37,386 nucleotides of DNA from Marinifilum sp. D737 (GTDB lineage Bacteria; Bacteroidota; Bacteroidia; Bacteroidales; Marinifilaceae), in the NCBI RefSeq assembly GCF_026672275.1, contig NZ_JANQCD010000041.1:1-37386 (forward strand). The letters are read 5' to 3'. Each line of letters opens with the position of its first letter. The first letter of the stretch is position 1. The translations under genes were made by a program, and so were the position numbers. This document shows positions 9,502-21,382 of this stretch, one piece after another. The notes under the pieces are model-generated. The model did no database searches. It was not told the DNA's origin and saw nothing but the letters and a program-made list of their open reading frames with translations.

Positions 9502-11100
9502 CTAAGAATATTGCTTATTTAATGTTAGTTGATCCAGTTCTTTTGAAATGGCAATTGCTTCATCTATAACATCGCCGGGGTATTCGTTAATCTCAAGAAT
9601 TCGAATTGCATTTCTATTCTTCAGTTTCCCAGGCTTCAATTTGTAATCAAAATCCACCTTATTCTCATTCACAACTTCACTAAAGTGATACAATTCATAT
9701 TCATCTGTCAAGAGATCGGTAAGCTCGATATCGTGAGTGGATACGAATACAAAATTTTTATTCTTGCTTAAGGCTGAAAGAACAGCTTTCCCGGCTGATA
9801 TCCTCTCAACGGTATTGGTTCCTTTGAAAATTTCATCCAACAAAAACAGGTTTGCCTTACCGCTGGAGGCATTGTCAATCATCTCCTTAATGGTCAAAAC
9901 TTCCTCAAAATAATAGCTTCTGTCATTTATTAGGTCATCATTAATTCGGATGGCAGAATAAATTCGCAAACGAGGAAAAGTCATTGCTTCTGCAAAACAG
10001 GTATTAAGGGTCAAGCCGCATATCACATTCAGACCAATGGTTCTGATGAATGATGTTTTTCCAGACATATTTGAACCTGTCAGTAGAATGGACTTCTCAT
10101 TCACCTTAATGGTATTGGATATGCAATTGGGGATTAGTGGATGATAAACTTTTTCGGCTCTGATTTCAGACTTGTTAATTGAAGGGATACAATAAATATT
10201 GCTTCCTTTTCTTAAGGAAGCTATGGAAATCAGGGCATCTATTTCGCCAACAAAGCAATAAACACTTTCAATTTCTTTTCTTTTGGTATCCAATCGTTTT
10301 AAAATGCCAAACAGTAACAATGGTTCCAGGAGAAAAGCAATCTTAATCAGTTCCAGTATTCCCCAAAATACGGCTTCAAATTCACTTTGCAGATTGGCCT
10401 CTAATCGAAAGAAGGACATTCTGTTTCGAACCTGCTTTAACACTTGAATTGAGCTTTTAAGATCGGGATCAATTGGTTTGAATTCCTCTTCTTTAAACAG
10501 CTTGGCGGCAATATTATTCAATTTTAAAAGTTGCGGAATTGATCCCAGGTATTTGTATAGATTCCTTTTGTTCCAATAATGAAATACGATGTTGACAATG
10601 AAAGCTCCAAAAAACACAAAGAACATTTTGGCATTAAAAGGAATCATTAATAAGGACAACAAACTGGTAAAGGATAACAGACGAACTATAAAAAACCACC
10701 TGGGAGCTTGCTCATATTCTCCTTGAAATAAAGAGGCAATATAATAGGCTTCCGTCTTGTTGAGTGCATCAAGCTGTAACTGAGTATTAAGTCTAAACCG
10801 TTCATCTTGCAAAAGCTTTTGAATCAAATGCTCTTTGAACTCAAGCGCTTCCGATTGGGCAGGGATGTTTCTTAATTTATTGTACAAATACTGCTGGCCA
10901 ACTTTCGAATTCGTCCGATCCAGAAACATGAATAGTTCTTCAAAATCCAGATCATTGCAGGTCTTATCGGATAGAATATGAAAGGACTCGCCATTGCTCT
11001 TATTTTTAAAATAACTTTTAATCGAATCAAAATAGAATGGATCATTTTTTAACGCTCCAAATGACTCTTTTAATATCTCTGTTTTTTTCTTTTTTCGCAT
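9502..11100 (-). CDS. Membrane-tethered MutS-family ATPase, 532 aa
   Basis: The C-terminal half is a MutS-type ABC ATPase: Walker A TGSNMSGKTS (341-350), the family 'INDDL..DRSYYFEE' stretch (about 387-400), Walker B LFLLDE (418-423) and the H-loop STHD (454-457). The N-terminal mismatch-recognition domain of MutS is absent. Instead there are hydrophobic segments at about 135-152, 158-175 and 246-267, within what would be the lever/core region. Proteins of this build are known in Bacteroidota only as 'MutS-related', with no defined role. Mismatch repair is unlikely given the membrane segments. It heads a two-gene unit with the 65-residue membrane protein. Confidence 0.85.
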   Translation of the reverse strand: MRKKKKTEILKESFGALKNDPFYFDSIKSYFKNKSNGESFHILSDKTCNDLDFEELFMFLDRTNSKVGQQYLYNKLRNIPAQSEALEFKEHLIQKLLQDERFRLNTQLQLDALNKTEAYYIASLFQGEYEQAPRWFFIVRLLSFTSLLSLLMIPFNAKMFFVFFGAFIVNIVFHYWNKRNLYKYLGSIPQLLKLNNIAAKLFKEEEFKPIDPDLKSSIQVLKQVRNRMSFFRLEANLQSEFEAVFWGILELIKIAFLLEPLLLFGILKRLDTKRKEIESVYCFVGEIDALISIASLRKGSNIYCIPSINKSEIRAEKVYHPLIPNCISNTIKVNEKSILLTGSNMSGKTSFIRTIGLNVICGLTLNTCFAEAMTFPRLRIYSAIRINDDLINDRSYYFEEVLTIKEMIDNASSGKANLFLLDEIFKGTNTVERISAGKAVLSALSKNKNFVFVSTHDIELTDLLTDEYELYHFSEVVNENKVDFDYKLKPGKLKNRNAIRILEINEYPGDVIDEAIAISKELDQLTLNKQYS

Positions 11101-12117: not shown

Positions 12118-12148
12118 AAAGAACCTTTGCCAATTGCAAAAGTTCTTT
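12118..12148 (-). terminator. Strong intrinsic terminator of the four-gene operon, start of a dispersed repeat
   Basis: On the minus strand a 13 bp stem (AAAGAACTTTTGC / GCAAAGGTTCTTT, one G-U) with a 5 nt loop is followed by nine T residues. It lies 60 bp beyond the stop of the zinc-ribbon gene. Together with 12149-12200 (CTTTGTG.. phrases) it forms a repeat that also occurs twice at 37193-37386, where the stem keeps pairing despite base changes. Confidence 0.9.
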
Positions 12149-12208
12149 GTGTTTCTTCGTGAAATACTTCTTTACCCTTTGTGGTTAAATTTTTATTCTG
12201 AAGCCAAA

Positions 12209-12451
12209 TTAATAGCCAATTCCTGCGGCCATAATGTTGTTAGGATCGAAAGCGTGACAAGGTGTTACACCATGTACCATATCGCATTTAGGGCAATGTC
12301 CTTCGAATTCTTCCATGGTAAAAGTTTCCTTACAACCATGACATTCGATATCCATAGGCATTGGCATCAATTGCTCTGCAAAGCCCATCATTCTAATTTT
12401 ATCAACTACTTGTTTTCCGTTTTCAAAGCTTCCTGCGCATCCGTCATGCAT
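12209..12451 (-). CDS. Small zinc-ribbon protein, 80 aa, last gene of the operon
   Basis: Two CxxC pairs, C37-H-G-C40 and C53-P-K-C56, form a typical rubredoxin-like zinc ribbon. Additional thiols are C5 near the start (HDGCAG) and C65-H66 (TPCHAF). A methionine-rich linker (MMGFAEQLMPMPM, 21-33) lies between. I know no named family. The gene has an unusually good Shine-Dalgarno (AGGAGG, 12464-12459) for a Bacteroidota gene, just after a 10 bp stem hairpin at 12474-12505. This suggests that it is translated at its own level within the operon. The role could be metal delivery or protein-protein contact; this is inference from the cysteines and from the cysteine-rich GTPase upstream. Confidence 0.8.
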   Translation of the reverse strand: MHDGCAGSFENGKQVVDKIRMMGFAEQLMPMPMDIECHGCKETFTMEEFEGHCPKCDMVHGVTPCHAFDPNNIMAAGIGY

Positions 12452-12473
12452 AATTATTTCCTCCTGATTAGTT

Positions 12474-12505
12474 GGTTTTGGTCAATAGTAAGCAAGACCA
12501 AAACC
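12474..12505 (-). promoter_or_regulatory. Intercistronic hairpin upstream of the zinc-ribbon gene
   Basis: A perfect 10 bp stem (GGTTTTGGTC / GACCAAAACC) with a 12 nt loop ends about 9 bp before the AGGAGG ribosome site. There is no T-tract, so it is more likely an mRNA processing or stability element than a terminator. Confidence 0.6.
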
Positions 12506-12552
12506 TTTATAATGATTTCTATTATTAATTCTTAATTACCAATTGATAATTG

Positions 12553-13581
12553 CTAAAAACCTATGTCTTCCTGTCGAATAATTTCACCATGACGAAGACG
12601 AGTTCTCATGTTTTGAATCACATTGTCCATTCTTTCCAATTCCGAAAGAAGGTTCTGCTCATCGCCACTGGTATCAATTACTTTATGAATTCCTCCGTTT
12701 TTGATTACAATTCTTCTGTCTCCCATTAATGCCAAAATAGGATCGTGAGTTGCCATCAATACAATTTTCTCCTCACCTACCAACAGTTCCAAAGCTTTCT
12801 TACGATCGATACCTGCATTTTCAATCTCATCAATCAAAATAATTGGTGATTTACTTAGAATCGCAGTATCAGCAATCATTAATGCTCTCGATTGTCCTCC
12901 ACTCAAGCTGGTAATCGGAGTATCCAAACTGAACTTCTCTCCTGCCAAATTATTAGCTTGTTCAAATATCTTGTTGATTACACCTTCAACATTCTCAACC
13001 AATCGGCTTTGAGCATGTAATTCTATAAACTCATAAACCGAAAGGTCCATTACAAAGTTCATGTTCTGAGACAACTGAGCCACCAATTTATGTCCTGAAG
13101 TCACTCGCCATTTTTTATCGCCTTTCTCGCCATTTACCAATATGGTTCTGGAAGTTGGCGTATCATTTTGTGCTACCCATTCAATATCTGCCAACAATCT
13201 ACTTTTTCCCGAACCTGTTGGACCAACAATACAAACAATTTCACTTTTGTTGATAGTCAACTCTTCGAATTGCTCCTTCTCGCCTGATTTATTGGTTCCA
13301 GGCAAAAGCGTAATGCTATTTACGCCCTCATCCTCATCTTCGCCAAGGAAAGCCAACATTTGGCTAATGTATTCGACCATGGATTCCATTACCTGAGCTT
13401 TATCCATTGCACGATTTTCCTTTTCCTCTTCATCATCCAAAATGTTCAGAAAATCATCCAACTTTTCGTTGATTTGCCCATCAACCTCCAAGGTGTTTTC
13501 TTCGAAAAATCCAGGAAGAAAAGGATACTGCTCAAATAGATCGGCAATTGTTTTTTGTTGTATATCTTGTGTTGTGATCAT
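12553..13581 (-). CDS. Soluble ABC-type ATPase with N-terminal DUF1858-like domain, 342 aa
   Basis: Residues about 100-310 form a complete ABC ATPase: Walker A GPTGSGKS (120-127), signature LSGGQ (226-230), Walker B IILIDE (247-252), and H-loop ATHD (277-280). Residues 1-50 (TTQDIQQKTIADLFEQYPFL...) resemble the DUF1858/ScdA N-terminal helical domain, also seen at the start of the substrate-binding-like protein of this operon, but without the usual cysteine. Residues 50-90 are very acidic (DDEEEKEN, GEDEDEG). No permease gene lies nearby and the protein has no membrane segment. It is therefore probably not a classical transporter subunit. It may instead drive a conformational or assembly step, as SufC-like or AtwA-like ATPases do (analogy only). 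It is followed 101 bp later by the zinc-ribbon gene. Confidence 0.85.
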   Translation of the reverse strand: MITTQDIQQKTIADLFEQYPFLPGFFEENTLEVDGQINEKLDDFLNILDDEEEKENRAMDKAQVMESMVEYISQMLAFLGEDEDEGVNSITLLPGTNKSGEKEQFEELTINKSEIVCIVGPTGSGKSRLLADIEWVAQNDTPTSRTILVNGEKGDKKWRVTSGHKLVAQLSQNMNFVMDLSVYEFIELHAQSRLVENVEGVINKIFEQANNLAGEKFSLDTPITSLSGGQSRALMIADTAILSKSPIILIDEIENAGIDRKKALELLVGEEKIVLMATHDPILALMGDRRIVIKNGGIHKVIDTSGDEQNLLSELERMDNVIQNMRTRLRHGEIIRQEDIGF

Positions 13582-13600
13582 GTTGTTGCTTTTTTAATCC

Positions 13601-13648
13601 ACCAACTTAAGCTGGTCGTTATTGATTTCCTCCAGTTAAAACTGGAGG
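13601..13648. repeat. Pair of REP-like hairpins between two operon genes
   Basis: ACCAACTTAAGCTGGT (13601-13616) and CCTCCAGTTAAAACTGGAGG (13629-13648) are two adjacent palindromes with 8 and 9 bp arms. In the first, the one mismatch is a G-U pair in minus-strand RNA. They fill the 107 bp gap between the GTPase and ATPase genes, next to an AGCTTGTAGCTTG repeat at about 13670. They could affect relative expression of the two genes. Confidence 0.75.
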
Positions 13649-13688
13649 CTATTCATATCGATATCTTGAAGCTTGTAGCTTGATACTT

Positions 13689-14396
13689 TTAGCTTTTTTT
13701 CTTTTTATCTTCCATGTCAATTTTTCGAACATTACCCATTTGGTAACTCTCTCCAATTCTGGTTTCACCCAAACAGTATGAACAAAGAGCCGATGGCATT
13801 GAGAATCGAAGTTTTTCACCAACCAATGTTTTTACCTCAACTTTTTCGTCGTACAGTAAAGTACTTAATTCGTATGCTCCCTGACCGGTTAAACCGTTTA
13901 CATGCATAATGCTTGCACCAGGATTTACCGTATTTACTCTGGAAGCAAAAACCTCACGTTCGGCCTGCGATACAATATCACCCTTGGTAATAATTACGAT
14001 ATCGGCAGATTTCAACATTGGTCCAATTTTCTTTGGTGTATTGATACCACTCAAATTATCGATTACACAAACAGCAGTTACACTTTTCACATATGGAGAA
14101 CAACGATTACACAATCCGGCACTTTCAGTGATTAAAATATCCAAGCCTTCTTTAATTCCCCACTGGGTAACTTCCTCGATATTACTTACAAAATAGTGAT
14201 CAGGGCAAAGTGATCCTGACAATCCTTTCTTCACTTTAACACCCGCTTTTTCGTATAAAATATCATCATCGGTATAAAGGCAATCGAATTTTACGACTCC
14301 TACCTCCAAACCACGTTTCTGGAAAGAATCGATGGTCTTTAAAATCACTGCTGTTTTTCCCGATGAAGGAGGTCCCGATACTGTAACTAAGTTCAT
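13689..14396 (-). CDS. Cysteine-rich HypB/UreG-like P-loop GTPase, 235 aa
   Basis: The N-terminal P-loop GPPSSGKTA (8-16) and the general SIMIBI-type layout, with a TKGD guanine-specificity motif (137-140), place it with the CobW/HypB/UreG metallochaperone GTPases. Candidate metal ligands stand out: C64-P-D-H67, C96-N-R-C99 immediately after the switch-like 'LLITESAG' stretch, and C205-S-Y-C208 near the C-terminus. Paired cysteines at the position after 'ESAG' match where HypB and UreG carry their nickel-binding cysteines. I infer a role in metal or metallocluster delivery. No hydrogenase, urease or CO dehydrogenase gene is in the window, so the target is unknown. The start is 34 bp after the stop of the preceding gene, which makes an operon almost certain. 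Confidence 0.85.
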   Translation of the reverse strand: MNLVTVSGPPSSGKTAVILKTIDSFQKRGLEVGVVKFDCLYTDDDILYEKAGVKVKKGLSGSLCPDHYFVSNIEEVTQWGIKEGLDILITESAGLCNRCSPYVKSVTAVCVIDNLSGINTPKKIGPMLKSADIVIITKGDIVSQAEREVFASRVNTVNPGASIMHVNGLTGQGAYELSTLLYDEKVEVKTLVGEKLRFSMPSALCSYCLGETRIGESYQMGNVRKIDMEDKKKKS

Positions 14397-14430
14397 ATGT
14401 TGTGTTGTTTATTCTGTTAGTGTTTAATAA

Positions 14431-15720
14431 TTAATCGTTGTTCGGACTATAGCTTAGAGGTCCCAGATTTGCAAACGACTCATCCTGTATGGATTTTTTA
14501 AAGATAGTTTCACATTTTGTAATTAACGAACCGATATCGTTGTTATTGATATAATCCCAACCTAACCACATAAATTTATTTTCTTCTGGTAATCTGTTGT
14601 CAACATTCGGATTGATACTTGGGAACAGTCCCTGGTGAGAAAGAATCTCTCCAACACCTTCCGAAGCAAAGAAGTCGATAACTGCTTGTGTCTTATCCAA
14701 TCTATCTTCTTTGGTCAACATGAATATCGGACTGATAATTGCACCATCCTCAGGCCAAACTGCAATCATAGGGCCTCCAACCTTAACCATTTTTGTAAAG
14801 AAATAAGGCATAATTGTAATGGCTGGCTTTTCATTCTTTTTGGTATGCGATTTTACCATTTGCGATGGGTGCATACTCTCCAGTAAACAAGCACCCAATC
14901 CTTTTACACCTTCTTCACCATAAGCCTTGTAGATATGCAACAACATGGAGTTGAACAAATCGAAATCGCTAATTGGTAAACTTACACTTCTTTTGAATTC
15001 CGGCTTAAAGATATCTGCCCAGGTGCGAGGTACAGGTCTATCACCCAATTCCGCTGTATTCACCAAAAATACCGCAGGCACAACTCCAATCATAGAATAA
15101 TGTCCTTCCGGGTCTTTCAAACAAATCTCATCATTATCGAAATCTTTATTCAATCGGTCAAAGCCTGTGCTATCCTTAAACACTCCCTGCTTTTTGAATT
15201 TACCCATCAATTTTTCATCGAAGAACAAATCAAAACCAGCAGAAATAAAAATATCAGCTAAATTATCGGTATTCTCCTGGTTAATTACATCATCAATTAA
15301 CCAATCCAATCCCATCGAAGCTGCTTTTAAATCATATACAATTTCATTATTGTATTTTTTCTCATAGTCAGCAATAAAAGAATCGATACCTTCCACCAAA
15401 GGCACTCGAACCGGACAAGGCAATAATCCTTGAACATGAACCGAATCTTCTTTTTTCTCTTTTGTCTTCTGATTTAAGTCGCCATCAACCTGTCCACGAT
15501 TTGAATCAATACCTTCTATCAGTAAGGCAGTAAAAGTCTCCACATTCAATTTCTTCATCTTTAAAGCCATCTCCAGGGAAAGGGATTTTCCAAAAAGAGC
15601 TCTTTTCTTTTCATCCTCCAATTGCTTGAATCCGTTCGAAACAAAAATTTTTACTGTCTCAGGATATTTAGTACAAATATCAAGCAAACTATCTGTGGTA
15701 TTAAAATATTGATTCTCCAT
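14431..15720 (-). CDS. Cytosolic substrate-binding-protein-like protein with N-terminal DUF1858-like domain, 429 aa
   Basis: Start chosen at the ATG at 15720 (MENQYFN), which lies just after the inferred promoter; the open frame extends upstream without a credible start. Residues 9-70 (DSLLDICTKYPETVKIFVSN...) resemble the DUF1858/ScdA N-terminal domain. Residues about 98-400 have the order and phrases of a type-2 periplasmic binding protein of the iron/thiamine/molybdate group (GLLPCPVRVPLVEGIDSFI, then 'GVVPAVFLVNTAELGDRPVPRTWADIFKPEFK'). There is no signal peptide or lipobox, so the protein should stay in the cytosol, which is abnormal for this fold. C102 in 'LPCPVR' is a candidate ligand. 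As first gene of the operon with the GTPase, ATPase and zinc ribbon, it may bind a metal, oxyanion or cofactor precursor inside the cell. Confidence 0.85.
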   Translation of the reverse strand: MENQYFNTTDSLLDICTKYPETVKIFVSNGFKQLEDEKKRALFGKSLSLEMALKMKKLNVETFTALLIEGIDSNRGQVDGDLNQKTKEKKEDSVHVQGLLPCPVRVPLVEGIDSFIADYEKKYNNEIVYDLKAASMGLDWLIDDVINQENTDNLADIFISAGFDLFFDEKLMGKFKKQGVFKDSTGFDRLNKDFDNDEICLKDPEGHYSMIGVVPAVFLVNTAELGDRPVPRTWADIFKPEFKRSVSLPISDFDLFNSMLLHIYKAYGEEGVKGLGACLLESMHPSQMVKSHTKKNEKPAITIMPYFFTKMVKVGGPMIAVWPEDGAIISPIFMLTKEDRLDKTQAVIDFFASEGVGEILSHQGLFPSINPNVDNRLPEENKFMWLGWDYINNNDIGSLITKCETIFKKSIQDESFANLGPLSYSPNND

Positions 15721-15751
15721 TGTGAAACCGATTTTTATTGATTTTCTATTG

Positions 15752-15759
15752 CAAATGTA
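15752..15759 (-). promoter_or_regulatory. -7 promoter box of the four-gene operon
   Basis: Minus-strand TACATTTG matches the Bacteroidota -7 consensus TAnnTTTG exactly and lies 32 bp before the chosen start codon. I see no good -33 TTTG at the usual 19-21 bp, which would fit a promoter that needs an activator. Confidence 0.55.
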
Positions 15760-15780
15760 TGGCCTCCAACAAAGAAAAAT

Positions 15781-15796
15781 TGTAACCGATGTTACA
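15781..15796. promoter_or_regulatory. Fnr-type palindromic operator
   Basis: TGTAACCGATGTTACA is a perfect 6-4-6 inverted repeat (TGTAAC-N4-GTTACA). The 4 nt spacing is that of Fnr/Dnr-class Crp-family sites. Its centre lies about 33 bp upstream of the -7 box centre, so about 40 bp upstream of the inferred transcription start, a usual class II activator position. It lies between the divergent operon and the gene starting at 15991 and could act on both. Confidence 0.65.
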
Positions 15797-18366: not shown

Positions 18367-19293
18367 ATGCTTGTTGCAAAAAACTTATCAAAATCTTACA
18401 AAGAAGTTAAGGCTCTTACAGATGTAAACCTGAACATTAAAAAAGGTGAATTATATGGTATGCTTGGGCCCAATGGAGCTGGTAAAACCACTACCATTAG
18501 TATTTTAAGTTCTCTGCTAAAGCCTGATGACGGCAAAATATTCTACGAAGAGAAATCTCTGTATCAGAATCTATCTGAATGCAAAAAGTTAATTGGTGTT
18601 GTACCTCAAGAAATTGCATTGTATGAAGATTTAACAGCTTCAGAGAATCTTAAATTTTGGGGGACCATGTATGGAATCAAAGGCCAACAACTCCAAAATA
18701 AAAGTGATGAATTATTGGAGTTTCTTGGTCTGGCTGATAGAAAAAATCACAAAATAAAAACCTATTCCGGTGGTATGAAGCGTAGAATTAATATTGCCGC
18801 TGCTTTACTTCACGACCCCAAAATCGTATTTATGGATGAGCCTACTGTGGGGATAGATCCGCAAAGTAGAAATTTGATTTTTGAAGTGATTGAAGAACTC
18901 CATTCTCGTGGCTTAACCATGATCTATACCACTCATTATATGGAAGAGGCTGAACGTTTGTGCGATAGAATTGGCATTATTGATGAAGGAAGGATTATAG
19001 CAGAAGGAAGTTTGGATGAGTTGAAAGCCAATTCTTCCATTAAAGAGGAGATTCATTTAAAATATTCCAATCCCAATAAAAATGGTTTAGAACAATTAAC
19101 CGATCGATACAATGGACAACTTCTCGTGAATCAAGATCATTTAATTCTATCCTCATCGCAGGCTAATGCAGACTTGCCAGAGTTAATTCAGCTATGTTCA
19201 CAATCTGAACTCCTACTTGATAAGATTGACATCAGAAGTCTGAGCTTGGAAAGCATTTTTCTTGAATTAACCGGTAAATCATTACGCGACTAA
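18367..19293 (+). CDS. ABC transporter ATP-binding protein, ABC-2 exporter type, 308 aa
   Basis: Complete ABC ATPase: Walker A GPNGAGKTT (34-42), signature YSGGM (133-137), Walker B IVFMDEPT (153-160) followed by VGIDPQSR, and H-loop TTHYMEEAE. The YSGGMKRR form and a C-terminal extension of about 80 residues are usual in the CcmA/NatA/DrrA group, which pairs with an ABC-2 permease to export drugs, lipids or ions. The permease gene starts 27 bp downstream, so the two form an operon. The substrate is not evident. Confidence 0.95.
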   Translation: MLVAKNLSKSYKEVKALTDVNLNIKKGELYGMLGPNGAGKTTTISILSSLLKPDDGKIFYEEKSLYQNLSECKKLIGVVPQEIALYEDLTASENLKFWGTMYGIKGQQLQNKSDELLEFLGLADRKNHKIKTYSGGMKRRINIAAALLHDPKIVFMDEPTVGIDPQSRNLIFEVIEELHSRGLTMIYTTHYMEEAERLCDRIGIIDEGRIIAEGSLDELKANSSIKEEIHLKYSNPNKNGLEQLTDRYNGQLLVNQDHLILSSSQANADLPELIQLCSQSELLLDKIDIRSLSLESIFLELTGKSLRD

Positions 19294-19320
19294 TCTCTAT
19301 CCATTCTAAAACCTAGCAAC

Positions 19321-20556
19321 ATGTTTACAATCGCATTAAAAGATATCAAGCAATATTTTAAAGATAAAACTGCAGTATTTCTCTCTCTACTCTTACCCAT
19401 CGCATTAATTACCATTTTTGCCCTGATGTATGGTGGGATTGGAAAATCGGGAAAATCGAGACCTATAAACTTACTGTTTACTGATCAAGACAAAACCGAT
19501 CTTTCTCAAGAAGTTTTCTCAAAATTGGACGCTGAAGAAGGTCTAAAGTTAGAACCTAAAAGCTATGAAGAAGCCGAAACCCTAATCAAAAAAGGAAAAA
19601 GAACTGCTGTTTTGGTATTGTACAAAGGCTTTCAGGATTCTGTTGAAGCTGGAAAAAAGATACCCATGGAATTGTTTTACGATGAAGCCAAAGAGATAGA
19701 AATGGGATTATTGCAGCAAGCTTTATGGTCGAACCTTTTTGGAGTAACCATGAAAAAAGGCATAAAAGGCAAAGTAAATACCTGGATTAAAGATAAAAAC
19801 CCAGATCTATCTGATTCTGAAATAGAAGATATACAAGCTCAGGTAGCAGAACAATTCGAAGGATTCAACAATTCGGAAGAGCAATCGGAAATTGAGGAGA
19901 ATTCAGAACTTCCAATGACAGCACTTGTTGGTGAAAAGAAAAATGGAAATCTTGGGCTTGTGCAAGCCATTGCTGGGATTGCAATCATGATGTTGCTATT
20001 CAGTGTGTCAGCCAGTGGCGCATCCTTATTAAAAGAAAAGGAAGATGGTACATTTCGTCGATTATTAATTGCTCCTGTTAGTCCTTCTGGAATTCTGTAT
20101 GGCAAAATGCTGTCAACACTATTTATGGCTGTACTGCAATTGAGCGTAATGTTCCTCTACTCCTGGTTGGTTTTGGGTTTAGATATTTTCATTAACCTTC
20201 CCGCACTTATTCTAATGATTCTATGTGCAGCCATTGCATGCTCGAGTTTCGGAATATTTATGGCATCGGTATGCAAAAGCAGAAAACAAGTAGAAAGTTT
20301 ATCAACTCTTATTATTCTTGTGATTTCGGCTATAGGCGGAAGTATGATGCCTCTTTTCTTTATGCCTGCCATCATGAAAAAACTAGCGGTAATTTCGGTA
20401 AACTACTGGGCCATGGAAGGATTCTTTGATATTTTCTGGAGACAACTACCACTTATCGATATTCTACCAAAAATGATAATTCTATTGGGAATTGCTACTG
20501 TTCTTACCACCATTTCGGTAATCAGTTTCAGAAGAAATTTATTGAAGATGGTATAG
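19321..20556 (+). CDS. ABC-2 type exporter permease, 411 aa
   Basis: The topology is that of the ABC2_membrane_3 family (YhgE/DrrB-like): one N-terminal membrane helix (about 17-40), an extracytoplasmic domain of about 170 residues, then five to six hydrophobic helices from about 218 to the end, interrupted by the cytosolic coupling loop 'LLKEKEDGTFRRLLIAPVSPSGILYGK'. The external domain includes a glutamate-rich stretch (EGFNNSEEQSEIEENSE, around 180-196). It pairs with the ATPase encoded just upstream to form a half-size exporter. The same arrangement often precedes multidrug or lipid-export functions, but the cargo cannot be assigned. Confidence 0.93.
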   Translation: MFTIALKDIKQYFKDKTAVFLSLLLPIALITIFALMYGGIGKSGKSRPINLLFTDQDKTDLSQEVFSKLDAEEGLKLEPKSYEEAETLIKKGKRTAVLVLYKGFQDSVEAGKKIPMELFYDEAKEIEMGLLQQALWSNLFGVTMKKGIKGKVNTWIKDKNPDLSDSEIEDIQAQVAEQFEGFNNSEEQSEIEENSELPMTALVGEKKNGNLGLVQAIAGIAIMMLLFSVSASGASLLKEKEDGTFRRLLIAPVSPSGILYGKMLSTLFMAVLQLSVMFLYSWLVLGLDIFINLPALILMILCAAIACSSFGIFMASVCKSRKQVESLSTLIILVISAIGGSMMPLFFMPAIMKKLAVISVNYWAMEGFFDIFWRQLPLIDILPKMIILLGIATVLTTISVISFRRNLLKMV

Positions 20557-20710: not shown

Positions 20711-21382
20711 ATGCTATTTCAACAACTCTCTCAATCACCCGTTTTTAGGGGCATTACTCCAGAAGAGATGGAGTCTCTTTTACAGGGTGCACAGTATAAA
20801 ATTAAGAAATATTCGAAAGGTGATATGGTAGCTTTTCGTGAAGATCGCTGCGAAAACCTAATGATTGTAATGAAAGGCAGTGTAAAAGGAGAAATGCTCG
20901 ATCCTTCAGGAAAAAGTATAAAAATTGAAGACATCATGGCTCCCTACCCTATTGCCTCCGCTTTTTTGTTCGGACAAAGAAATCAGTTTCCGGTAAATGT
21001 AACGGCAAATGAGGATGTAGAAATCTTCTCTTTGGCAAAAGAATCGGTTGTTGATTTGTTTCAGAAGAATAAAGTATTCCTTATTAATTATCTCAATCTA
21101 ATTTCAAATCGAAGTCAGTTTTTAGCCAACAAACTGATGTTTTTAAATTTTAAAACCATTAAAGGCAAATTGGCAAACTACATTTTAAAATTGGCTGCCC
21201 CAGACAAAGAACAAGTTACTCTACCAAAATCACAATCAGAAATGGCACAGTTTTTTGGAGTAACTCGCCCATCCTTTGCCAGAAGTTTAAAAGAAATGGA
21301 ACAGGAAGGATTAATTGAGACGCATCGAAGAGATATTAAAATCTTAAATAGACAACAACTTATCCGACTTCTTCAGCAATAG
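20711..21382 (+). CDS. Crp/Fnr-family transcriptional regulator, 223 aa
   Basis: Residues about 10-120 form a cyclic-nucleotide-binding-type beta-roll (ENLMIVMKGSVKGEM..., then 'VEIFSLAKESVVDLF'). A long dimer helix follows (about 125-150), then a winged HTH with recognition helix 'FFGVTRPSFARSLKEMEQEGLI' (about 186-207). There is no N-terminal cysteine cluster for an Fnr-type iron-sulfur centre. It therefore belongs to the group that includes ArcR/HcpR-like regulators rather than true Fnr; heme or another ligand is possible. The gene is 204 bp upstream of a flavodiiron protein gene in the same direction. It is the only Crp/Fnr gene in the window and so a candidate to bind the palindrome at 15781-15796. 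Confidence 0.92.
   Translation: MLFQQLSQSPVFRGITPEEMESLLQGAQYKIKKYSKGDMVAFREDRCENLMIVMKGSVKGEMLDPSGKSIKIEDIMAPYPIASAFLFGQRNQFPVNVTANEDVEIFSLAKESVVDLFQKNKVFLINYLNLISNRSQFLANKLMFLNFKTIKGKLANYILKLAAPDKEQVTLPKSQSEMAQFFGVTRPSFARSLKEMEQEGLIETHRRDIKILNRQQLIRLLQQ

Follow-up and report, generated by a model that had tools for sequence, protein, structure and literature searches.

A stretch of 37,386 nucleotides from Marinifilum sp. D737 (the window) carries four adjacent genes encoding a protein like a substrate-binding protein (SBP), a GTPase, an ATP-binding cassette (ABC) ATPase and a zinc ribbon. Genome comparison suggests that this operon encodes a cytosolic machine, driven by GTP and ATP, that would load metal or repair clusters within the HcpR (nitric oxide) regulon and would serve the hybrid cluster protein, Hcp, either directly or via iron supply; we give this reading a probability of roughly one in two. 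The operon is real, widespread and apparently undescribed. A preliminary description of the window, made from its letters alone, had proposed a machine inside the cell that loads a metal or a cofactor into some metalloenzyme. The data fit that proposal and narrow it to the HcpR/Hcp nitrosative-stress system, adding a candidate client and a regulon, while both the metal and the client stay predictions.

Hcp guards anaerobes against nitric oxide. The four-gene set is not described in the parts considered of PMC1274295, PMC12915319, PMC5701242, PMC10434189, PMC6344411, PMC6006190, PMC9052748, PMC8593673, PMC6710368 and PMC6282519, and, as the preliminary description had supposed, no pathway with this set was found in the open-access journal literature searched. 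The same literature yielded no described factor for the assembly or repair of the hybrid cluster. If the operon serves Hcp, how this cluster is built or repaired becomes testable. Transport parts (binding protein and ABC ATPase) would then be acting without a membrane, and a further maturation route based on a SIMIBI NTPase would stand beside those for nickel enzymes and for carbon monoxide dehydrogenase (CODH).

The operon and hcp have an operator in common

The motif of HcpR2 was given as GTAACnnnnGTTAC, and the mark of HcpR2 as a proline at the second specificity position (Rodionov 2005, PMC1274295). This motif was found, exact, at 15782-15795, upstream of the operon. In the 5.08 Mb genome of the window (G000; operon on contig C66) the pattern TGTAACN4GTTACA occurs at exactly two sites, one at the operon (C66:15781) and one (C86:54825) some 140 bp upstream of the only hcp match (54980-56614), and the reversed control at none. 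An HcpR2-like Crp/Fnr gene lies 4.9 kb from the operon palindrome; its specificity positions were assigned by visual comparison with the CRP helix. Exact GTAACN4GTTAC sites precede both the operon and hcp in five of seven genomes (G000, G231, G211, G214 and G234); in G244 there is an exact site at the operon and none at hcp, and in G206 a site is present at hcp and the operon promoter is off the contig.

Across the loci whose upstream sequence was long enough, a site with at most one mismatch was found near 45 of 100 SBP starts, compared with 1% of single-base shuffles, as well as at 9 of 29 hcp genes and at none of 118 internal GTPase genes. Exact sites at SBP starts numbered 30, of which 17 were from Marinifilaceae (the window included) and 13 from elsewhere. 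These sites make a strong case, drawn from sequence, for co-control of the operon with hcp by HcpR and for predicted membership of the regulon. The operon resembles the known regulon members hcp and frdX in operator and regulator type and in having hcp as a fellow member. It is not mentioned in the parts considered of the HcpR regulon papers PMC1274295, PMC12915319 and PMC5701242, from whose main texts the word GTPase is absent; two mentions of 'GTP-binding' in PMC5701242 concern other genes, judging by context.

Gene order is conserved in many phyla

A scan of 84,980 species genomes returned 407 stretches coding for a relative of the GTPase, and the best 80 were kept for locus counts. The kept loci, with GTPase identities of 77-100% (77-84% in the 62 outside Marinifilaceae), came from Bacteroidota, Spirochaetota, Bacillota, Fusobacteriota, Cloacimonadota, Acidobacteriota, Aminicenantes, Campylobacterota and others. 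The order SBP-GTPase-ABC was found in 72 of the 80 loci and GTPase-ABC in 77, so that the homologues are neighbours in other genomes, as the preliminary description expected; over all annotated loci, with some genomes counted twice, the ABC gene follows the GTPase gene in 116 of 119 cases and the SBP gene precedes it in 96. This gene order is far beyond chance. A zinc ribbon starting MHxGx was found by pattern search in 54 of the 80 loci and in the window, and copies with other starts exist.

A tree of 58 GTPase sequences, with several long branches and an unsure inner order, placed the window's protein in a clade of 35 (clade A; support 97/97), whereas a second clade held 10 sequences (98/92) and the rest lay on outer branches. 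Phyla are intermixed in clade A, which points to horizontal transfer. The layout of clade A loci is (HcpR-like Crp/Fnr or Rrf2 regulator)-SBP-GTPase-ABC-zinc ribbon-(hcp). An Rrf2-type regulator is encoded upstream in 16 of 79 loci and a Crp/Fnr protein within 3.5 kb in 12 of 79, nine of these 12 having an RPS helix. Besides Hcp, the other neighbours that recur in clade A outside Marinifilaceae are regulators, a cupin and a small ferredoxin; further common neighbour genes looked like the local synteny of one lineage. The cupin, of about 112 amino acids, is encoded upstream of the SBP in Cloacimonadota-type loci (L042, L033, L035, L044, L050, L053 and L069), and in several loci a 61-amino-acid ferredoxin gene is found further downstream.

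Hcp is the candidate client

The preliminary description had called for a search for a recurrent fifth gene encoding a metalloenzyme. The best candidate is hcp, whose product is a nitric oxide reductase. By clustering, hcp was found beside the operon in 20 of 80 loci; it lies on the same strand at most 4 kb downstream in 15 of 79 (at 20 of these 79, the available downstream sequence is shorter than 4 kb), and it is the only metalloenzyme gene seen recurring next to the operon.

Co-occurrence was counted in two evenly drawn genome sets, pooling all clades. In the set from the window's phylum, Bacteroidota, the GTPase was found in 11 of 198 genomes (G000 and ten at 63-67% identity), and all 11 have hcp, compared with 45 of the 198 overall (hypergeometric p 3e-8, uncorrected for kinship); counted by genus, the figures were 4/4 and 6/103. 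In the set from the order of a Tepidibacter genome (G223), hcp was present in 42 of 42 genomes with the GTPase and in 131 of 148 overall (p 0.002, likewise uncorrected). Among the 48 searchable genomes of the 80 loci, hcp was detected in 38 at E values up to 1e-50, 37 of them above the family cut-off.

The same DNA switch at the operon and at hcp suggests that this kit builds or repairs Hcp or its kind. In its narrowest form, which we put forward only tentatively, the operon would encode a machine dedicated to assembling and repairing the hybrid cluster of Hcp. In it, an SBP and an ABC ATPase of transport origin would have become a device for metal transfer without a membrane, coupled to a GTPase like UreG and a zinc ribbon like HypA; horizontal transfer would have carried the set among anaerobes.

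Several observations weigh against a machine for Hcp. The short motif is not enriched genome-wide (31 sites in seven genomes compared with 44 for the reversed control; 7 and 17, respectively, in G000), and no HcpR site within one mismatch was found at the 16 loci with an Rrf2 regulator. The four tree members from the ten Bacteroidota genomes with 63-67% identity fall in the importer-linked clade described below, not in the window's. Ten of the 48 operon genomes, of unstated completeness, showed no hcp, and both Aminicenantes tested were without it, though 29 of 80 genomes of their class have hcp. Conversely, hcp is present without the GTPase, at the cut-offs used, in 34 of 45 Bacteroidota and in 89 of 131 genomes of the other set; because most hcp genomes are without the operon, it cannot act as the maturase of Hcp in general. 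Its role may be confined to particular metal or nitric oxide conditions, or it may serve other clusters. Finally, the importer-linked sister clades suggest a wider metal role.

Genomes with the operon and no detectable hcp (10/48) would be explained by general repair, in which the set would restore iron or another metal to a wide range of iron-sulfur proteins after nitric oxide damage and Hcp is only a co-regulated remover of nitric oxide, comparable to E. coli, where YtfE/RIC and Hcp are co-regulated. The common operator and the presence of DUF1858 proteins in other nitrogen-oxide systems are consistent with this model. However, hcp alone among metalloenzyme genes was seen to recur beside the operon, the long palindrome precedes no third gene in G000, and a test for RIC/YtfE/ScdA gave no ScdA_N or hemerythrin match in the operon's proteins (for the ABC protein, among the best 25 of 26 Pfam families). 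We consider general repair possible, if on the doubtful side.

CODH, a homologue of Hcp, was also considered as a client and, for the window, rejected: G000 has no CODH match, and none was seen by eye and coordinates beside the operon in the sister- or outer-clade loci fetched. Clade B CODH has been linked with NitT/TauT transporters (Inoue 2019).

A UreG/HypB-like GTPase with a zinc-ribbon partner

The identities proposed for the four products (cytosolic binding fold, Cys-rich GTPase, soluble ABC ATPase and zinc ribbon) were upheld. GTPases and ATPases of the HypB, UreG and CooC types bring metal to enzymes. The operon's GTPase is a member of the CobW/HypB/UreG superfamily (PF02492, E 2e-13, 50.9 bits against a gathering cut-off of 20.7), and it remains under the NCBIfam equivalog cut-offs for hypB (48.6 of 121.2 bits) and ureG (27.1 of 204.2). 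Among proteins of solved structure, UreG (E 5e-10) and HypB (E 1e-8) are closest to it; matches of its profile to RecA were sums of weak repeats, so RecA proteins were rejected as relatives. The sequence CPDH aligns with the UreG metal motif CPH, with one extra Asp. Residues C39, C64, P65, D66, H67, C96, C99, C110, C205 and C208, seven of them Cys, are invariant in 29 of 29 aligned GTPases, which bears out the Cys-containing candidate metal sites noted earlier. Among 120 GTPases, CPDH and GLCxRC were found in all and CSYC in 119. Judged from these motifs, metal binding by the GTPase is probable.

The system is like UreG/HypB with HypA in its SIMIBI GTPase core, in a Cys-Pro-(Asp)-His motif at the same place and in a small zinc-ribbon partner. 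It differs in that the GTPase adds an invariant CxxC and a C-terminal CSYC and has an SBP and an ABC ATPase for partners. CooC is a SIMIBI NTPase encoded beside a prismane-fold enzyme, the Hcp homologue Ni-CODH (PMC6006190), an arrangement similar to that of the operon and hcp. CooC itself is a MinD-type ATPase; its counterpart in the operon is a GTPase of the UreG/HypB type, with Hcp as the enzyme.

The zinc ribbon gave only a sub-threshold Pfam match to HypA (E 0.001) and failed the HypA cut-offs (PF01155, 19.5 of 28.9; TIGR00100, 18.1 of 88.1), with an alignment covering the zinc-ribbon part only; against the PDB, its profile found matches only at E 0.11 or worse. Residues H2, G4, C5, C37, C53, C56, C65 and others are invariant in 30 aligned copies. 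The MHD or MHE start resembles the nickel-binding start of HypA, though in six of the 30 copies the His follows other residues.

These likenesses of the GTPase to UreG/HypB and of the zinc-ribbon start to HypA could reflect maturation of a nickel enzyme (CODH, hydrogenase or urease) by HypA/HypB-like parts. Such a role is very unlikely: the HypB, UreG and HypA equivalog cut-offs are not reached, CODH was not found in 13 of 26 genomes tested (G000 included), no nickel enzyme was seen recurring beside the operon, hydrogenase and urease not having been searched for, and the regulon points to Hcp.

A cytosolic binding-protein fold and a soluble ABC ATPase

Binding-protein folds normally work outside the membrane. 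The SBP-like protein matches SBP_bac_6 (E 4e-83) and DUF1858 (E 2e-15), and its N-terminus is this DUF1858 domain, not a signal peptide. In agreement with the preliminary description, a simple hydropathy scan found no hydrophobic stretch in the first 45 residues of the window's protein or of any of 78 relatives of 395-430 amino acids. Its AlphaFold2 model (pLDDT 87) has P5PA, FutA, FbpA, AfuA and PotD as best folds. Its likeness to the FbpA/FutA/AfuA/P5PA binding proteins is one of fold (TM about 0.6-0.7 by target length), and it differs from them in being cytosolic and in having DUF1858 added. Ferric-binding proteins such as FbpA have Tyr-Tyr/His/Glu iron ligands.

The ABC ATPase matches ABC_tran (E 3e-17). 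All 35 aligned sequences keep the lysine of Walker A, LSGGQ, the DE of Walker B and the His of the H-loop, so ATP hydrolysis by this protein is expected. The N-terminal 88 residues match the DUF1858 domain of the SBP (hhalign probability 89.5 and E 2e-6 in local mode, 59.8 in global mode), and the predicted models of the two proteins have a helix pattern in common. Direct DUF1858 matches were weak and found in three of six ABC N-termini, the window's not among them; elsewhere in G000 there was no further DUF1858 match. Three of eight SBP N-termini, again without the window's, gave sub-cut-off matches to TIGR03980 (hybrid cluster protein-associated redox disulfide domain), a DUF1858-type domain whose name ties its family to Hcp. 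DUF1858 proteins are present in other nitrogen-oxide systems (bsl7085 of Bradyrhizobium and DrpB of Thermus) and, together with the Hcp-derived name of TIGR03980, they point towards a link with Hcp.

SufC of the SUF system is likewise a cytosolic ABC ATPase without a membrane partner. The operon differs from SUF in that its proteins contain no SufB/SufD-like domain, the neighbours having been judged by cluster and eye only, and in that its ABC protein has a DUF1858-like domain of its own; by Foldseek the ABC protein groups with general ABC domains only, those of SmsC among them. Against the PDB, its profile found nothing at E 1e-15.

Importers accompany sister clades

No permease gene is present among the four, so within the operon the ABC ATPase indeed lacks a membrane partner. 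In the window's clade, a protein with at least five transmembrane segments was encoded in the directon of 7 of 79 loci; by eye, rather than by family search, these differ by locus (UppP, MFS-, DMT-, MATE-, antiporter- and exporter-like), and no recurrent membrane partner or importer was seen beside the operon. The SBP and ABC folds could nevertheless belong to an ordinary ABC importer with an unlinked permease and a binding protein that has lost its signal. This is highly improbable: the operon failed a test for an importer, having neither a permease nor an exported SBP, none of the 78 relatives has a signal peptide, the ABC protein has an extra N-terminal DUF1858-like domain, and its gene adjoins that of the GTPase almost without exception (116/119).

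In the sister clade (clade C), the same genes adjoin FecCD-type importer genes. At locus L155, family tests identified a FecCD permease, a Peripla_BP_2 protein, a methyltransferase and a TonB-receptor plug protein; importer neighbours in other clade C loci were judged by size and eye. GTPase-ABC-SBP genes lie in or beside FecCD-type importer operons in loci L155-L158 (Bacteroidota) and L134, L135 and L149-L152 (the order of G223), and a methyltransferase and a TonB-receptor-like protein are apparently encoded at others of these loci besides L155. The importer-linked locus L144 has a DUF4213/DUF364 neighbour. Clade C possibly represents a metal-chelate uptake and unloading pathway, as its gene neighbourhoods suggest. 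On outer branches, most of the loci retrieved have GTPase-ABC-SBP and a Crp/Fnr gene in divergent orientation, and L134, L139 and L148 are near SsuA-family binding proteins that score under the family cut-off. The outer-branch operons in L139-L148, except L144, encode a shorter ABC protein of about 240-270 amino acids. Because the sister clade adjoins FecCD-type importers, the term 'permease-less' from the preliminary description is untrue of the whole family, although it holds for clade A, where no permease is constant.

These neighbourhoods (L155 and L144, with the sub-cut-off SsuA neighbours of outer-branch loci) raise the alternative of metal-chelate processing, in which a chelate is imported and the set removes or traffics its metal, the clade A importer is encoded elsewhere and the nitric oxide link reflects a need for fresh metal. 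It is an unlikely explanation for the window's operon, given that no importer recurs beside it in clade A and that no further long palindrome precedes an importer in G000.

Proposed mechanism

In the preferred reading, a machine serving Hcp, nitric oxide or a related signal would act through the HcpR2-type regulator on the palindromes and turn on the operon and hcp together. The cytosolic SBP-like protein, by its predicted fold, may bind a metal, or a complex of one, within its cleft. This predicted ligand is most likely iron, given that the hybrid cluster is itself iron-based and that the closest folds of the SBP include ferric-binding proteins. The ABC ATPase and the SBP probably dock via their DUF1858-like domains, and ATP hydrolysis would open or close the SBP or the client. 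The zinc ribbon, from its weak likeness, may be an adaptor as HypA is for HypB. The GTPase would pick up the metal at its CPDH and CxxC sites, and GTP hydrolysis would put it into an apo- or nitric oxide-damaged enzyme, as UreG and HypB do. We thus infer the SBP to be a metal carrier, the ABC ATPase a driver acting via the matched DUF1858 domains, and Hcp the client.

Gene calls and other features of the window

The four genes are real, all on the minus strand and separated, as described earlier, by short gaps of 34, 107 and 101 bp. The mechanical SBP open reading frame extends to 15822; the internal ATG at 15720 is preferred, being the most likely start because median lengths in the clade's three SBP clusters are 410-429 amino acids.

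Table 1. Features of the operon and its regulator in the window
Feature	Position	Strand	Description
Terminator-like hairpin, then T run	12118..12148	-	scan for such hairpins; not above chance
Zinc ribbon, 80 aa	12209..12451	-	MHDGC start, CxxC...CPxC, TPCHAFD motif
Soluble ABC ATPase, 342 aa	12553..13581	-	complete catalytic motifs; N-terminal DUF1858-like helical domain
GTPase-ABC gap, 107 bp	13582..13688	-	two short inverted repeats, by eye
UreG/HypB-like SIMIBI GTPase, 235 aa	13689..14396	-	Pfam and alignment
SBP-like protein, 429 aa	14431..15720	-	N-terminal DUF1858 and SBP_bac_6 fold (FbpA/FutA/AfuA type); invariant C102-P103 in 42 aligned relatives
HcpR2-type palindrome TGTAACATCGGTTACA, exact	15781..15796	-	61-76 bp upstream of first gene (SBP)
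Crp/Fnr regulator, HcpR2-like	20711..21382	+	recognition helix ...TRPSFAR..., R and P at two specificity positions, by eye

Of the boundaries in the preliminary description, the promoter-like region stood in a different form: sigma-70-like matches were at chance level (14 found, 14.6 expected), and the real upstream signal is, on sequence grounds, the palindrome. The terminator, called strong, is present as a hairpin with a T run, but with 2.0 such hits expected by chance in the scan it is plausible and not significant. The GTPase-ABC gap was rejected as a dispersed repeat, since the rest of the genome gave no more than two matches to it, both weak and partial; in other phyla the GTPase and ABC genes nearly abut at many loci.

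Elsewhere in the window, a 532-amino-acid protein with MutS domain V is encoded on the minus strand at 9502-11100; it scores under the MutS1 and MutS2 cut-offs and somewhat resembles the KamC reactivase ATPase model. Genes for an ABC ATPase and a 411-amino-acid partner occupy 18367-20556, immediately upstream of the gene for the HcpR2-like regulator, a pair whose order before that gene is kept in 11 of 18 Marinifilaceae loci, contig edges included.

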